This document shows positions 10,626 through 16,248 of a stretch of DNA of 64,000 nucleotides, one piece after another (positions within the stretch are counted from its first letter, which is position 1; each line of letters begins with the position of its first letter). Source of the stretch: Saxibacter everestensis (lineage in GTDB: Bacteria; Actinomycetota; Actinomycetes; Actinomycetales; Brevibacteriaceae); assembly GCF_025787225.1 (NCBI RefSeq), contig NZ_CP090958.1, positions 620,001-684,000 of the forward strand, given 5' to 3'. The position numbers were made by a program, and so were the translations under genes. The notes under the pieces are model-generated. The model saw only the letters and a list, made by a program, of their open reading frames with translations. It made no database searches and had not been told where the DNA came from.

Positions 10626-11369
10626 ATGGCGGACTCTCCCAGTTCAGGAGTTGCCGTGGTCCCGCTAGATGCACCCCACAAGCAGCGCGTTGTCGTGGTC
10701 GCGCCGCATTCCGACGATGAGTGCCTCGGTGCAGGCGGAACAATAGCCATGCTCGCCGGCCACGGCGCCGAGGTGACAGTTGTGACGATTGCCGCGGACC
10801 TGCCACCGCTGTATCCCGCGGGAACGAAGGAGAAGGTTGAGGCCGAGGCGCTCCGGGCGCACGGGGTCCTTGGCGTCCATGATTCGGTGTTCCTGGATTT
10901 CCCGGCAGTCGACCTTCCCCAGCAGTCAACCGCGGCAATCAACCGCGGGGTGCAGGACGTCGTCGACAGTGTCCGCCCGACAATGGTATTCCTGCCATTC
11001 CCGGACAGGCACGTCGATCATAAGATTGCCTTCGACGCCGGCATGGTGGCGAGCCGCCCGGTGCGTGCAGGTAAGAACATAGCTCTGGTGGCTCTCTACG
11101 AGACCATCTCGGAGACTTTCTGGAATGCTCCCGGAGCGGAGCCGAATTTCGTGCCCAGCTGGACTGTCGATATCACCGAGACTATCGACCAGAAGATCGC
11201 GGCATTCGAGCAGTTCGAAAGCCAGATCAGTCCCTTTCCCGGCCCCAGATCGGCGGAAGCGTTACGCGCGCTCGCGCTGTTCCGCGGCAGCCAGTCCAGC
11301 GTCGGCTATGGCGAATCGTTCCAGATCGCCCGGGCCACCTTTTCCCCGGTCGACCTGCTGTCGGTTTAG
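10626..11369 (+). CDS. PIG-L family zinc deacetylase
   Basis: A 247-residue protein of the PIG-L/LmbE fold. The metal motif AxHxDDE appears as APHSDDE (His28, Asp31), followed by LGAGGTIAMLAGHGAEVTVVTI. The second metal motif HxxH appears as FPDRHVDH. The family removes N-acetyl groups from N-acetylglucosaminyl conjugates, for example MshB and Mca in mycothiol metabolism. This protein lacks obvious features that would make it MshB or Mca, so the substrate is open; surface glycolipid or glycan is possible. Start ATG 10626 has no clear ribosome-binding site. A dyad overlaps the stop codon. The stress-protein gene follows 52 bp later. Confidence 0.85.
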   Translation: MADSPSSGVAVVPLDAPHKQRVVVVAPHSDDECLGAGGTIAMLAGHGAEVTVVTIAADLPPLYPAGTKEKVEAEALRAHGVLGVHDSVFLDFPAVDLPQQSTAAINRGVQDVVDSVRPTMVFLPFPDRHVDHKIAFDAGMVASRPVRAGKNIALVALYETISETFWNAPGAEPNFVPSWTVDITETIDQKIAAFEQFESQISPFPGPRSAEALRALALFRGSQSSVGYGESFQIARATFSPVDLLSV

Positions 11370-11382
11370 GGCCCGAGCCCTA
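11367..11382 (+). terminator. Small dyad overlapping the deacetylase stop codon
   Basis: TAGGGC-CCGA-GCCCTA: a perfect 6-bp stem with a 4-base loop whose left arm contains the TAG stop. It lies in the short gap before the stress-protein gene and may be an attenuating terminator or part of that gene's control region. Confidence 0.35.
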
Positions 11383-11421
11383 GACTTGGGGCAAAGGTCA
11401 TTAACGAGAGGATGTAGTCAC

Positions 11422-12306
11422 ATGGCGAGTTCAGCCGATGAAACGCACGTGGGCGAGGTCTCGGTCGACGCGGTAGTTGTCGGCACGGATGGTTCCGACG
11501 AAGCTCTGCGAGCAGTTGCCTGGGCCGCCAGGGGCGCCGCGGTGATGAAGCGCACCTTGGTCATCGTCCACGCCTGGGTATGGCCGCTCTACAATATCGA
11601 CCTCGGGCCGGTGTCCGGGATCAAGGACAGCGGACTGCAGCGGGCCGCCGAACGAGTGCTGGAAGAAGCCGAAGCCGAGGCCCGGAAGACTGCGCCGGAG
11701 ATCAAGATCTCCACCCGGCTCGTCGTCGGTCGTGCGGGGGACAAGCTGGCCGAAGCCAGCCGGGACGCAAACCTGGTGGTGGTGGCGGATCGTGGGCTCG
11801 GCGGATTTCTCGGGCTACTGCTCGGATCGACGAGCCTTCGCCTGGTGACCGGCTCCCATGCTCCGGTGCTGTTGGTGCGCGGCGCGGATCACGATGGCGG
11901 ACCGGTGGTTGCTGGCGTTGACGGCTCGGCGGAGAGCGACCTGGCGGTACAGCGAGCGGCCGAACTTGCCGACTTCACCGGCAATTCGCTGAACCTGATC
12001 CATGTCGACCGGCTCGGTGCGTATCAGAGCGACGCTGTCAGCGAGGACGGCGAGCCGGCGGAAATGCTGGAGAAGGCCGTTCAGATCGCGAAGCAGACGG
12101 CGCCATCGATCGAAGTTTCGTCATCGGTGGTGTCGGCGAAGTCCGCACCGAAAGCGCTTATCGATGCTTCCGAGACGGCCCGGATCATCGTGGTCGGCTC
12201 ACGCGGGAGCAGCCAGTTCGCCGGCCCGCTCGGCTCGACGACGCACGCCCTGCTACAGCATGCGAAGTGCCCGGTGCTCTGCGCCGTCGCCCCCAAGTCA
12301 GACTGA
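11422..12306 (+). CDS. Universal stress protein, two UspA domains
   Basis: A 294-residue tandem UspA protein. Domain 1 (about 12-150) starts VSVDAVVVGTDGSDEALRAVAWAARGA and ends with the ATP-binding loop ADRGLGGFLGLLLGST. Domain 2 (about 158-292) starts VVAGVDGSAESDLAVQRAAELA and ends VGSRGSSQFAGPLGSTTHALL. Both carry the G-x2-G-x9-G-S/T signature of ATP-binding Usp proteins, cytoplasmic stress and dormancy factors. Start ATG 11422, preceded by GAGAGGA; the open frame extends much further upstream but antisense to nothing conserved. The last residues PKSD plus the stop codon are part of a triplicated 20-bp repeat just downstream. Confidence 0.9.
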   Translation: MASSADETHVGEVSVDAVVVGTDGSDEALRAVAWAARGAAVMKRTLVIVHAWVWPLYNIDLGPVSGIKDSGLQRAAERVLEEAEAEARKTAPEIKISTRLVVGRAGDKLAEASRDANLVVVADRGLGGFLGLLLGSTSLRLVTGSHAPVLLVRGADHDGGPVVAGVDGSAESDLAVQRAAELADFTGNSLNLIHVDRLGAYQSDAVSEDGEPAEMLEKAVQIAKQTAPSIEVSSSVVSAKSAPKALIDASETARIIVVGSRGSSQFAGPLGSTTHALLQHAKCPVLCAVAPKSD

Positions 12307-12353
12307 GGGGCGCCAAGTCAGACTGAGCGCCCCCAAGTCAGACTGAGGGGCGC
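12289..12353. repeat. Triplicated 20-bp unit with alternating arms (likely bidirectional terminator)
   Basis: CAAGTCAGACTGA occurs at 12294-12306, 12314-12326 and 12334-12346, exactly every 20 bp. The linkers alternate: CGCCCC before the first copy, GGGGCGC (12307-12313), GCGCCCC (12327-12333), GGGGCGC (12347-12353). Each linker is the reverse complement of the next, so hairpins 1:2, 2:3 or 3:4 can form, each with CAAGTCAGACTGA as the 13-base loop. The first copy holds the last codons and TGA of the stress-protein gene. It lies between convergent genes. Confidence 0.85.
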
Positions 12354-12382
12354 CAGGGTCGGCTTTTGGCCGGCTGGGCGGG

Positions 12383-12724
12383 TTAGTGGCTGCTGACCTG
12401 CTGTGGCGCGTTCGCCGGTGAATAGACGTCAACTCCGACGCCGTTGAAGCGGGAGGTCCTGCCGTCAGCTCCGCGAACGTCGCGATGATCGGTGTGCTGG
12501 CCGTCGATCCGGACGAAAATGTGCATTGGCAGCAGGTAGGCGAGGCTGACCAGAACGATGCCGGCGGCGAAGATGGGAAGGCCAAGATTCTCGTAGGCAA
12601 AGGCCGTGCCCATGGCATAGAGGCCGGCCGCGAACAGAACCAGGCCGACGACAACACCGATAACACTTATCGAGCTGCTGGACTTGGACGGCTTGCTCGG
12701 GTTAAAGCTGTTCGTTTGAGGCAC
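12383..12724 (-). CDS. Small two-TM membrane protein, unknown function
   Basis: About 113 residues. A Ser/Lys/Pro-rich N-terminus (NSFNPSKPSKSSSS) precedes two hydrophobic segments, ISVIGVVVGLVLFAAGLYAMG and LGLPIFAAGIVLVSLAYLLPMHIFV. A polar C-terminal tail carries a short His/Asp cluster (DGQHTDHRDVRGADG). No family is recognised. I chose GTG 12724 because AGGA lies seven bases upstream; GTG 12757 would add 11 residues but has no ribosome-binding site and abuts the 23-bp repeats. It is on the same strand as, and downstream of, the conserved hypothetical gene, with the 23-bp tandem repeats between them. Confidence 0.55.
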   Translation of the reverse strand: MPQTNSFNPSKPSKSSSSISVIGVVVGLVLFAAGLYAMGTAFAYENLGLPIFAAGIVLVSLAYLLPMHIFVRIDGQHTDHRDVRGADGRTSRFNGVGVDVYSPANAPQQVSSH

Positions 12725-12761
12725 TGCAATTCCTATCTCGCCACGGTCGGTTGCCACTAGT

Positions 12762-12822
12762 CTAAGCCAGCCGGATTCCTGGCCCTAAGCCAGCCGGATG
12801 CCCGGCTCTAAGTCAGCCGGTC
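12762..12822 (-). repeat. Three 23-bp tandem units touching a stop codon
   Basis: On the + strand CTAAGCCAGCCGG starts at 12762 and 12785, and the near-copy CTAAGTCAGCCGG at 12808: an exact 23-bp period. Read on the minus strand, the first unit overlaps the TGA of the gene ending at 12821. Same style as the repeats at 4342 and 12289. Confidence 0.8.
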
Positions 12823-13258
12823 ATGCATCGTCCGGAGTCGCCTCATGACCTGGCCGCCCCGAAGACCGGCGGCGTTCCTTCAGTCGTGCCTCATAGACGT
12901 GACGGACTCCGCCGAGAAGCTGTTCGCGTGCGGCACGTTCGGCGTCCTTAACCCGGCCGTAGTATCCGTCGTCGTATTCTTCAATGATCTGAAACGTCCA
13001 CCGGCCCGCAAGTACATTGCGGCCGACGACATCGTTTTCGATCTGATCGGCAAGCTCCGTACGGCCAGCCGTGCGGAGCTTCTGCACTGCGTCGCCCAGC
13101 TCGAAGTCCGCCTTACCGGTCAACTGGTGGAACGAATACAGGTGTCCGCGCGCGCGTTCAACGGACTCCAGCGCTGCGGTGAGGGCGCCAACCGCCTCCA
13201 CTTCGGCATCCGACACGTCGTCGGCGGGCTGATGGCCAGGATCAGGCAACTCGGTCAT
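12821..13258 (-). CDS. Conserved actinobacterial hypothetical protein
   Basis: A 145-residue soluble, largely helical, charged protein. The central part (ALESVERARGHLYSFHQLTGKADFELGDAVQKLRTAGRTELADQIENDVVGRNVLAGRWTFQIIEEYDDGYYG) is strongly patterned, and I recall similar proteins across actinobacteria without a function. The sequence shows no catalytic motif and no membrane segment. Its ATG (13256-13258) overlaps the stop of the AlkZ-like gene by four bases, so the two are translationally coupled and presumably made together with the ABC exporter upstream. Confidence 0.65.
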   Translation of the reverse strand: MTELPDPGHQPADDVSDAEVEAVGALTAALESVERARGHLYSFHQLTGKADFELGDAVQKLRTAGRTELADQIENDVVGRNVLAGRWTFQIIEEYDDGYYGRVKDAERAAREQLLGGVRHVYEARLKERRRSSGRPGHEATPDDA

Positions 13259-14358
13259 GGAGTCGACCTTAGTAGTTCTACCGTCTGCCGGGTGCCCGGG
13301 GCATCGAATGACAGCAGCTTCAGCGCCTCCCGTTCGATCTGCTCGCTCGCGCGCTTCGAGACCTGATGGAACAGCGTGACGACGGCACGGGCTTCGTCCT
13401 TCTTCTTTACGGTTTCAACGATGCCGACGACGAAACCGTTGACCAGGACCGTGCTTTTGATAATCCCGTTGATGGTGAAAACCAGCTTTTGCATGTCGAG
13501 GTCGATGATCCGTTCACGAGCCGCATGTGAGAGCAGCACATTGTCGAACGGTGCCAGCAGCCTCACCGGGGCTGGGACATCCGCAGCCGGTCGCGGAGCG
13601 TCGGGAAGGTCGAAGAGCTCGGCGCCGTCGGGGCCGGTAAACGGCAGTACGCTAGGCCGCAGTCGTTGGAACACCTCGGTCAGCCGGGTAAGCCCCGACC
13701 ACTGCTGGGCGTCCATCACGCTCGCCGGGCCGTAGGCGCCCAGATATCGCAACACCATGTCGTCGATACTCGGCGCGGGGTGGGGATCCCGGCCGAGCCA
13801 GTGTTCCAAGGTGGTGCCACGCGGCTGCCCGGACCTACCCCAGATGGCGCGCGGCGGTACCTGTACGAATGGCAACATGTTCCGCACGCCGTAAGCCAGG
13901 GACGCCGGATCGCGATCCGGCCAGATTGGTTGGAGCAAGGGCCGCAACTCGGAGATGCTCAACGGTCGTTCTTCAACCAGCCGGCGGCCCGTTGCCGCCA
14001 GCTCGTCGAAGTCGAGTCCTGCCAGGGCCGGAGCGTGCGTGGCATTGCGGACCAAATCCCGTTCGGTGATCACTTTGGTCAATGGCCGAAACGTCAACGC
14101 GTCATCGGCGCTGACCAGGTGGATGGTGCCGCGCATCAGCACCATCCGCAGCGCTTTACGGTCCAGTAGCAGTTGGGCCAGCTCATCCGGTTGGAAGGAT
14201 TTCAGCCGGGTCCACAGCGCAAAGTAGGGAGCCAGTGGCGCCTGTGCCTGGAGCCCGACCAGGTGTTCAATCAACTCGATCGGCGACATCGTGCCGCGAC
14301 TCAGTAGCGACTGACGGGCCAGGGTGGCGCGGTTGAGCTCGCGCAGACTGAGGCTCAT
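13255..14358 (-). CDS. Winged-helix protein of the AlkZ/YcaQ (HTH_42) superfamily, DNA glycosylase-like
   Basis: A 367-residue HTH_42 protein. Near the N-terminus it has VGLQAQAPLAPYFALWTRL; the Q-A-Q (Gln37-Ala-Gln39) matches the Q-phi-Q catalytic motif of AlkZ-type DNA glycosylases, which unhook bulky or crosslinking alkyl lesions (family knowledge). It continues with MVLMRGTIHLVSADDAL, YGVRNMLPFVQVPPRAIWGRSG and a C-terminal FDNVLLSHAARERI block, all typical of the superfamily. The usual database name is 'winged helix DNA-binding domain-containing protein'. Glycosylase activity is inference. The start lies 3 bp after the stop of an ABC exporter gene, suggesting joint export and repair of a DNA-reactive compound. 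Confidence 0.75.
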   Translation of the reverse strand: MSLSLRELNRATLARQSLLSRGTMSPIELIEHLVGLQAQAPLAPYFALWTRLKSFQPDELAQLLLDRKALRMVLMRGTIHLVSADDALTFRPLTKVITERDLVRNATHAPALAGLDFDELAATGRRLVEERPLSISELRPLLQPIWPDRDPASLAYGVRNMLPFVQVPPRAIWGRSGQPRGTTLEHWLGRDPHPAPSIDDMVLRYLGAYGPASVMDAQQWSGLTRLTEVFQRLRPSVLPFTGPDGAELFDLPDAPRPAADVPAPVRLLAPFDNVLLSHAARERIIDLDMQKLVFTINGIIKSTVLVNGFVVGIVETVKKKDEARAVVTLFHQVSKRASEQIEREALKLLSFDAPGTRQTVELLRSTP

Positions 14359-14361
14359 AGC

Positions 14362-16248
14362 TTAAAGACTAGAGGCAGCCTCCGGTTCAGTGGCACCGAA
14401 TTGGCTTTCGTGCAGTTCGCGATAACGGCCGCCGAGAGCGAGTAGCTCGCCGTGGGTCCCACTTTCCACGATTCGGCCTTCTTCGATCACCAGAATCTTG
14501 TCCGCGGCCCGCACCGTCGACAGTCGATGAGCGATCACAAGGGAGGTGCGGCCGATAAGTGCCTGACGAAGCGCCTCCTGCACGGCAGCTTCCGAGGTGG
14601 AGTCGAGCGCGGCTGTCGCCTCGTCCAGGATGACGACGTCGGGCTGCGCGAGCAGTACCCGGGCAATCGTCAGCCTCTGGCGCTCGCCGCCGGACAGCCG
14701 GTAGCCGCGTTCGCCCACGACCGTGTCCAGACCTTCGGGAAGAGCGGCCAGGAACGCCCCGAGCCGGGACCGGCGCAGCGCGTCCTCGAGCTGCTCGTCG
14801 CCGGCGTCCGGCTTGGCCAGGAGAAGATTTGCCCGGATGGTGTCGTGGAACAGGTGACCATCCTGGCTGACCACGCCGATCGTCCGGCGCAGAGACTCGA
14901 AACTCGTGTCGCGGATGTCAATGCCGGCGAGCTTGACGCTGCCAGTGTCAACGTCGTACAGCCGGGGAACCAGCTGCGCGATCGTCGACTTTCCGGCGCC
15001 GGATGAGCCGACCAACGCAACCATCTGCCCGGGTTCGATCCGGAATGACACATCGTGCAGCACCTGGCTGCCTTCCCGGTCGTCGAGCTTGGTCACCTCT
15101 TCGAGCGAGGCCAACGAGACCTTGTCCGCCGAGGGATAGCCGAAGTCAACGGAGTCGAACTCCACACTGACGCCGGACGGCGGGATGGGCGTCGTCTGCG
15201 CCTTTTCGGTGATCAACGGCTTGAGGTCCAGCACCTCGAACACCCGTTCGAAGCTGACGAGCGCACTCATGATTTCCAGCCGGGCGCCGGCGAGCGCCGT
15301 CAGCGGGGCATACAGTCGGGTCAACAACATCGCCAGCGCGACTACGTCGCCCGAATTCAGCTGCCCGGCCAACGCGAATGTGCCGCCGAGTCCGTAGACA
15401 AGTGCGAGCGCCAGCGCGGAAACCAGGGTGAGCGCGGTGATGAAGACCCACTGCAGCATCGCGGTATGCACGCCGATATTGCGCACCCGGCGGGCCCTGC
15501 TCTCGAACTCCGCGGACTCTTCCTCCGGTCGGCCGAAAAGCTTGACCAGGGTGGCGCCGGGAGCGGAAAAGCGCTCAGTCATCTGCGCGCCCATCGAGGC
15601 GTTGTAATCCGCAGCTTCGCGACGCATCTCTGCCAACCTGCTGCCCATCCTCCGTGCGGGCACGACGAAGATCGGAAGCAGGACCAGCGCAATAAGGGTG
15701 ACCTGCCACGACAGAGACAGCATGACCGCGAGGGTGAGCGCGAGCGAAACGATATTGCTGACCACGCCCGAGAGGGTGTCACTGAATGCCCGTTGCGCGC
15801 CGAGCACGTCGTTATTCAACCGGCTGACCAGGGCTCCGGTGCGGGTTCGGCTGAAGAAGGCGATCGGCATCTTCTGCACGTGGTTAAAGACCGCTGTGCG
15901 CAGATCAAGGATGAGTCCCTCGCCGATTCCCGCCGACAACCAACGGTTGACGATGCCGAGTGCCGCTTCTGCCAGCGCAATGACCGCGATGATTACCGCG
16001 AGCTGTACGACGACGGACGGTGCCTCCCGCCCAACGATGGCGTTCACCACCTGCCCGGCCAGCAGCGGAGTTGCCACAGCAAGAGTGGCCGTCGCGACGC
16101 TGAGCGCAATGAAGCCAATCAACTGTGAGCGGTATTTTCTGGCGAAGCCGGCGATCCTGCTCAGCGTTGCCCGCGAGAACGGACGCTTTTCCGTGCGCGC
16201 CGTCATCGAGCTGTAGAGCGAACTCCACGCAGTGCTCTCCATGCTCAT
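14362..16248 (-). CDS. ABC exporter, fused permease-ATPase
   Basis: A 628-residue half-transporter: six-TM domain (about 35-330), then an ATPase with Walker A LVGSSGAGKST, signature LSGGERQRL, Walker B DVVILDEATAALD (catalytic Glu intact) and switch His in VIAHRLSTV. This fits a homodimeric type IV exporter of lipids or drugs. Just before Walker A is a 20-residue insertion (LASLEEVTKLDDREGSQVLHDV) that lengthens the usual approach to the ATPase. Start ATG 16248 follows GAAAGG at eight bases. It is first in the operon exporter - AlkZ-like - hypothetical, and divergent from a two-component system that may regulate it. Confidence 0.88.
   Translation of the reverse strand: MSMESTAWSSLYSSMTARTEKRPFSRATLSRIAGFARKYRSQLIGFIALSVATATLAVATPLLAGQVVNAIVGREAPSVVVQLAVIIAVIALAEAALGIVNRWLSAGIGEGLILDLRTAVFNHVQKMPIAFFSRTRTGALVSRLNNDVLGAQRAFSDTLSGVVSNIVSLALTLAVMLSLSWQVTLIALVLLPIFVVPARRMGSRLAEMRREAADYNASMGAQMTERFSAPGATLVKLFGRPEEESAEFESRARRVRNIGVHTAMLQWVFITALTLVSALALALVYGLGGTFALAGQLNSGDVVALAMLLTRLYAPLTALAGARLEIMSALVSFERVFEVLDLKPLITEKAQTTPIPPSGVSVEFDSVDFGYPSADKVSLASLEEVTKLDDREGSQVLHDVSFRIEPGQMVALVGSSGAGKSTIAQLVPRLYDVDTGSVKLAGIDIRDTSFESLRRTIGVVSQDGHLFHDTIRANLLLAKPDAGDEQLEDALRRSRLGAFLAALPEGLDTVVGERGYRLSGGERQRLTIARVLLAQPDVVILDEATAALDSTSEAAVQEALRQALIGRTSLVIAHRLSTVRAADKILVIEEGRIVESGTHGELLALGGRYRELHESQFGATEPEAASSL

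Follow-up and report, generated by a model that had tools for sequence, protein, structure and literature searches.

Between the gene of a universal stress protein and its convergent neighbour in Saxibacter everestensis, a tandem array was found in which a 15-nt core occurs three times and the spacers alternate with their own reverse complement. With about even confidence, we regard this array as a local minisatellite derived from a single hairpin at a gene's 3′ end, which would serve as a U-less two-way terminator or as a stabiliser of 3′ ends made by Rho. The feature seems to be of an ordinary kind, and the alternation makes its geometry unusual. All positions refer to the window, the whole stretch of 64,000 nucleotides that was analysed.

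Layout of the array and its neighbouring genes

The array begins inside the open reading frame of the stress protein (11422-12306, plus strand; PF00582 in two stretches, E 2.9e-42) and extends towards a small gene without a Pfam match on the minus strand (12383-12757). The stop codons of this convergent pair are 76 bp apart. Repeats were detected by two tools and their positions were confirmed by script. Reading from the left, the spacer CGCCC (12288-12292) is followed by core 1 (12293-12307), the spacer GGGCG (12308-12312), which is the reverse complement of CGCCC, core 2 (12313-12327), again CGCCC (12328-12332), core 3 (12333-12347) and a last GGGCG (12348-12352); the cores are given for the plus strand, and no strand is assigned to the spacers. 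The core CCAAGTCAGACTGAG is exact in all three copies, which are spaced at 20 bp and span 12293-12347, and TRF reported a period of 20 with 3.2 copies and a score of 105. After the last spacer three letters, CCA, follow before the sequence diverges from the repeat. The segment 12288-12315 is identical to 12328-12355, at an offset of 40 bp and without a mismatch.

The original prediction had described three identical cores of 13 bases, separated by linkers that are reverse complements of each other. Number and identity of the cores are correct, whereas their length is 15 nt, and the linkers alternate as described over all four spacers. It also stated that both strands of the array read almost alike. 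This is a fair description, as the array and its reverse complement agree at 50 of the 65 positions (77%; 500 mononucleotide shuffles gave a mean of 25.9 and a maximum of 34). The placement between convergent genes is right too, but the array overlaps the left gene: 14 bases of core 1, comprising the last codons and the stop codon TGA (12304-12306), belong to the stress protein gene, and with the first spacer the overlap amounts to 19 bases. The middle spacer differs from its neighbouring spacers at three of five positions, each change restoring pairing. Stop codons were located by script in all six frames inside the array, since the period of 20 is not divisible by 3 and both TGA and TCA are repeated. 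They follow from the spacing and need not reflect selection.

A separate small hairpin, GGTCGGCTTTTGGCCGGCT (12357-12375, no strand assigned; read from the sequence and its predicted fold), sits between the array and the right gene and is not followed by a U-tract on the plus strand. Further to the right, a second minisatellite is located between two minus-strand genes (12762-12820; 23 bp in 2.6 copies, beginning with CTAAGYCAGCCGG). In two slightly different stretches its folding is weakly better than that of shuffles, with z -1.9 and -2.6 on the minus strand and z -2.0 and -0.9 on the plus strand. The motif AAGTCAG is common to both arrays, possibly by chance. The core of the second array, CTAAGTCAGCCGG, has 124 matches with at most two mismatches compared with 230 in the control and therefore does not represent a dispersed family.

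Predicted folds and termination signals

According to the original prediction, each core can be the loop of its own hairpin, and these hairpins exclude one another. Such hairpins are indeed predicted for one core with its two spacers (-14.4, -17.6 and -17.6 kcal/mol for cores 1 to 3 on the plus strand; -15.6, -19.5 and -19.5 kcal/mol on the minus strand), and they share their arms. However, the predicted optimum on both strands is one three-unit rod, in which core 1 is paired with core 3, core 2 forms the loop and the last spacer forms the right end. The pairing of cores 1 and 3 is possible because the core contains AGTCAGACT, which is almost its own reverse complement. For the region 12280-12385 we obtained -61.3 kcal/mol (z -4.1) on the plus strand and -60.2 kcal/mol (z -5.4) on the minus strand, with none of 200 shuffles as good in either case; these z-scores are inflated by the repeats themselves. 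In growing plus-strand transcripts, folded to equilibrium at each length and not kinetically, the first hairpin is predicted to give way to the central hairpin and then to the rod. The rod is complete at 12352, 46 nt past the stop codon at 12306. A ribosome terminating at this stop would mask the first hairpin, whereas those further downstream would remain accessible.

The convergent position, the strong predicted folds on both strands and the closing of the rod shortly after the stop are compatible with a two-way 3′-end element such as the bidirectional terminator that had been proposed, but a U-tract is absent. In the 8 nt after the rod there is one T on the plus strand and none on the minus strand, and the array therefore does not have the make-up of a classical intrinsic terminator. 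From the canonical L-shaped form it has the GC-rich hairpin at or after the stop codon, both in the single hairpins (-14.4 to -19.5 kcal/mol) and in the rod, and it lacks the adjoining U-tract. A terminator scan of 11000-14500 gave one site only, at 13381, and none at the array, and in the whole window no Rfam match reached the gathering score. What is present are stable hairpins within 80 nt of the stop without a U-tract, as in U-less terminators or hairpin clusters, together with strong predicted structure on both strands between convergent genes, as in bidirectional terminators. The genome contains a rho gene. The array may be a terminator without a U-tract or one assisted by Rho, or it may be an RNA stabiliser. 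Termination in both directions would be a reasonable reading, provided that it is U-less or helped by Rho.

For Streptomyces clavuligerus, more structured ends without U (353) than U-rich ends (182) were reported, and the ends lacking U were interpreted as I-shaped terminators or Rho-dependent ends (PMC8269248). A computational study on 13 genomes describes hairpin clusters as common termination units for which poly-U is not necessary, and 98% of its correctly identified sites are located within 80 bases of the stop (PMC8355165). Against a U-less terminator, the mycobacterial RNA polymerase reportedly requires a U-tract at intrinsic terminators (Czyz 2014, cited in PMC12288462), and about 54% of the ends in Mycobacterium tuberculosis are given as Rho-dependent (PMC12288462).

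Gene ends were compared in a 464-kb genome sample, which consists of the 64-kb window and 400 kb of further stretches (L071-L090). Strong folds, defined as -22 kcal/mol or lower in 40 nt, were obtained for 20% of 136 convergent 3′ ends, in comparison to 11% of 82 ends before same-strand gaps of at least 80 nt and 7% of 129 close pairs. A T-rich stretch (6 of 8 T) within 120 nt is rare everywhere in this sample, with 7 of 136 convergent ends, 8 of 82 same-strand gaps and 6 of 129 close pairs. By 40-nt folding the two ends of the array rank 28th (plus) and 25th (minus) of 136, which is good and not exceptional; by 70-nt folding with both strands summed, its gap is the 4th of 68 convergent gaps.

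Repeats elsewhere in the genome and in relatives

When repeated cores whose spacers are exact reverse complements were searched for strictly, this array was the sole match in the 464-kb sample. With a relaxed spacer match of 80% it was again alone there, compared with two hits in five random 464-kb sets, and no match was found in 200 kb each of two relatives. The core itself is confined to one locus in the genome, with three exact matches. The stem GGGGCGC(4-16 nt)GCGCCCC was considered as a genome-wide signature and rejected, since its count of three places per strand equals that of the control.

No conserved locus, and with it no orthologous array, was detected in the genomes compared: in 58 other genomes, those relatives that score best against the stress protein have 35-37% identity, and the 181 bases around the array matched one of these genomes only, over 33 bases inside the right-hand gene. 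For the small convergent protein, weak relatives occur in 10 other genomes (59 searched). The tandem-core pattern had no match in genome_contigs or viral_contigs and the array none in the plasmid collection, and when genome_contigs was scanned at the protein level, five loci appeared, all distant; in all of these collections the source genome's own records are possibly excluded. In a limited survey of the literature, which is no proof of absence, no description of an alternating-spacer array was found.

Short tandem arrays are frequent in the genome sample. We counted 53 in the 464-kb sample (11.4 per 100 kb), of which 27 are coding, 23 intergenic and three at stretch ends, with genes called by a simple home-made script based on codon usage; two relatives have 8 in 200 kb each (4.0 per 100 kb). 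The density is thus nearly three times that of the relatives, and about half of the arrays are coding. Among the intergenic arrays, 8 of 23 lie in convergent gaps, which make up 17% of the intergenic bases (P 0.033 in a binomial test). The lean is weak, as it falls to 7 of 22 (P 0.07) once the present array is removed. When these seven were folded, one clearly surpassed its shuffles, two reached z -1.7 and -1.4 on one strand and four were no better than their shuffles. The clearly structured one, at L081:16999-17121 (z -3.6 and -2.3), reaches both stops of a convergent pair. Repeats with a period of 60-61 bp containing GGGATCATCCCCGCGCG were noticed at L087:11702-11910 and 13079-13232. They resemble a CRISPR array, putatively of type I-E.

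Origin, rival explanations and unit number

As the origin of the array, we suggest slippage expansion of a single CGCCC-core-GGGCG hairpin that already straddled the stop codon. Transcription from either side would then produce a stable hairpin, at predicted equilibrium one three-unit rod, which probably defines or protects the 3′ ends of both convergent transcripts. This could be achieved either by a U-less hairpin terminator or by a point at which exonucleases stop trimming once Rho has ended transcription. As the source of the inverted middle spacer, a template switch between inverted repeats was considered; related work deals with spacer inversion (PMC8604942) and with hairpin creation (PMC8794818). 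If the segment between GACT and AGTC had been inverted, the three bases flanking the spacer on each side would have been flipped as well, and by inspection these are unchanged. The array was detected in none of the other genomes examined, and therefore nothing shows selection on it.

The strongest rival, less probable than our preferred reading and still to be taken seriously, is a neutral minisatellite: a hairpin at the gene end was multiplied by slippage, and the additional units have no effect beyond that of one hairpin or of none. The abundance of short tandem arrays in this genome, about half of them coding, the missing conservation in the genomes searched and the poor folding of most other arrays in convergent gaps argue for it. 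On the other hand, an exact alternation that keeps all stems paired on both strands is not a plain product of slippage, and no second array with such an alternation is present in the 464-kb sample. The classical two-way intrinsic terminator with a U-tract is hardly credible and the least probable of all: its GC-rich hairpins follow soon after the stop codon, yet almost no T is found behind the rod and no terminator-like site at the array.

At the level of DNA, the three cores might be protein-binding sites about two helical turns apart, or the array might be extruded as a cruciform or DNA hairpin. The spacing of 20 bp would place the cores on nearly one face of the helix, and single-stranded DNA is also predicted to form a rod, with energies of -22.8 and -23.0 kcal/mol at z-scores of -6.3 and -6.1. 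However, the array lies between gene ends, where a promoter is not expected, and its core occurs nowhere else in the genome, which leaves this explanation unlikely. Slightly less probable still is a degenerate member of a dispersed REP-like palindrome family, for example the 52-bp palindrome of genus g2 with AAGTCAGACTGAG arms. This palindrome was observed at 16 sites in six genomes, with 1 to 5 sites each (L004, L005, L007, L009, L011 and L012; around position 1501 in each). A word of 12 to 13 bases is common to both elements: the 12-mer is present in 5 of 59 genomes, own included, and 7 of its 9 places in four relatives fall in the dispersed palindrome of g2, a genus of the same family as the source genome. 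But 9 places are few in view of 3 for the reversed control, and the palindrome search missed the array and had its sole match in this genome (E 0.007) elsewhere. Furthermore, core sequences with up to three mismatches occur at 53 other places, compared with 72 for the reversed control. The many dispersed copies typical of REP or BIME elements are thus not found here, and the core is restricted to one locus.

We return to the minisatellite with a role at 3′ ends, for which the number of units may matter. In in-silico folding of the plus strand, arrays built from one, two, three, four and five alternating units reached -13.2, -14.7, -43.0, -44.5 and -72.8 kcal/mol, whereas units with identical spacers gave -13.2, -25.3, -36.3, -48.4 and -59.4 kcal/mol. 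The predicted stability rises in steps of two units because the spacers alternate. That terminator strength depends on unit number, as originally suggested, is plausible on this model; a search of the genomes and the contig collection gave no case with a different number of units. A further step would be to see the array as a counting switch, that is a phase-variable two-way terminator in which slippage flips read-through between the stress protein gene and its convergent neighbour. If one unit were lost (three to two), the predicted rod of -43.0 kcal/mol would collapse to a structure of -14.7 kcal/mol, and a gain to four units (-44.5 kcal/mol) would alter its stability little. We give very little credence to this idea.

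Compared with known systems, the array resembles the U-less ("I-shaped") terminators or hairpin clusters reported for high-GC bacteria, which likewise have GC-rich stems no further than 80 nt from the stop, lack a U-tract and place several hairpins close to each other (PMC8355165, PMC8269248). In contrast to these clusters, its predicted hairpins have arms in common and are mutually exclusive, and the array as a whole is predicted to fold as one rod. As a short direct tandem repeat in intergenic DNA, it corresponds to bacterial minisatellites or VNTRs, of which the 464-kb sample offers the 23 intergenic arrays counted above, but its every second spacer is inverted. The regular unit spacing with alternation is also known from BIME arrays of REP palindromes, for which an alternating REP orientation and usually more than 100 REP copies per genome are described (PMC2817692), whereas in our array the orientation of the core is constant, the spacers alone alternate and one locus is occupied. 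The alternation is the one unusual point of the array, and it gives the two-unit step in predicted stability.

If the array is inactive, it illustrates how a minisatellite can grow from a gene's 3′-end hairpin in a repeat-rich genome. If it is active, it would provide a compact natural test of two questions: whether transcription in high-GC bacteria is ended by hairpins that lack a U-tract, and whether the strength of termination is set by a predicted stability that changes stepwise with the number of units.
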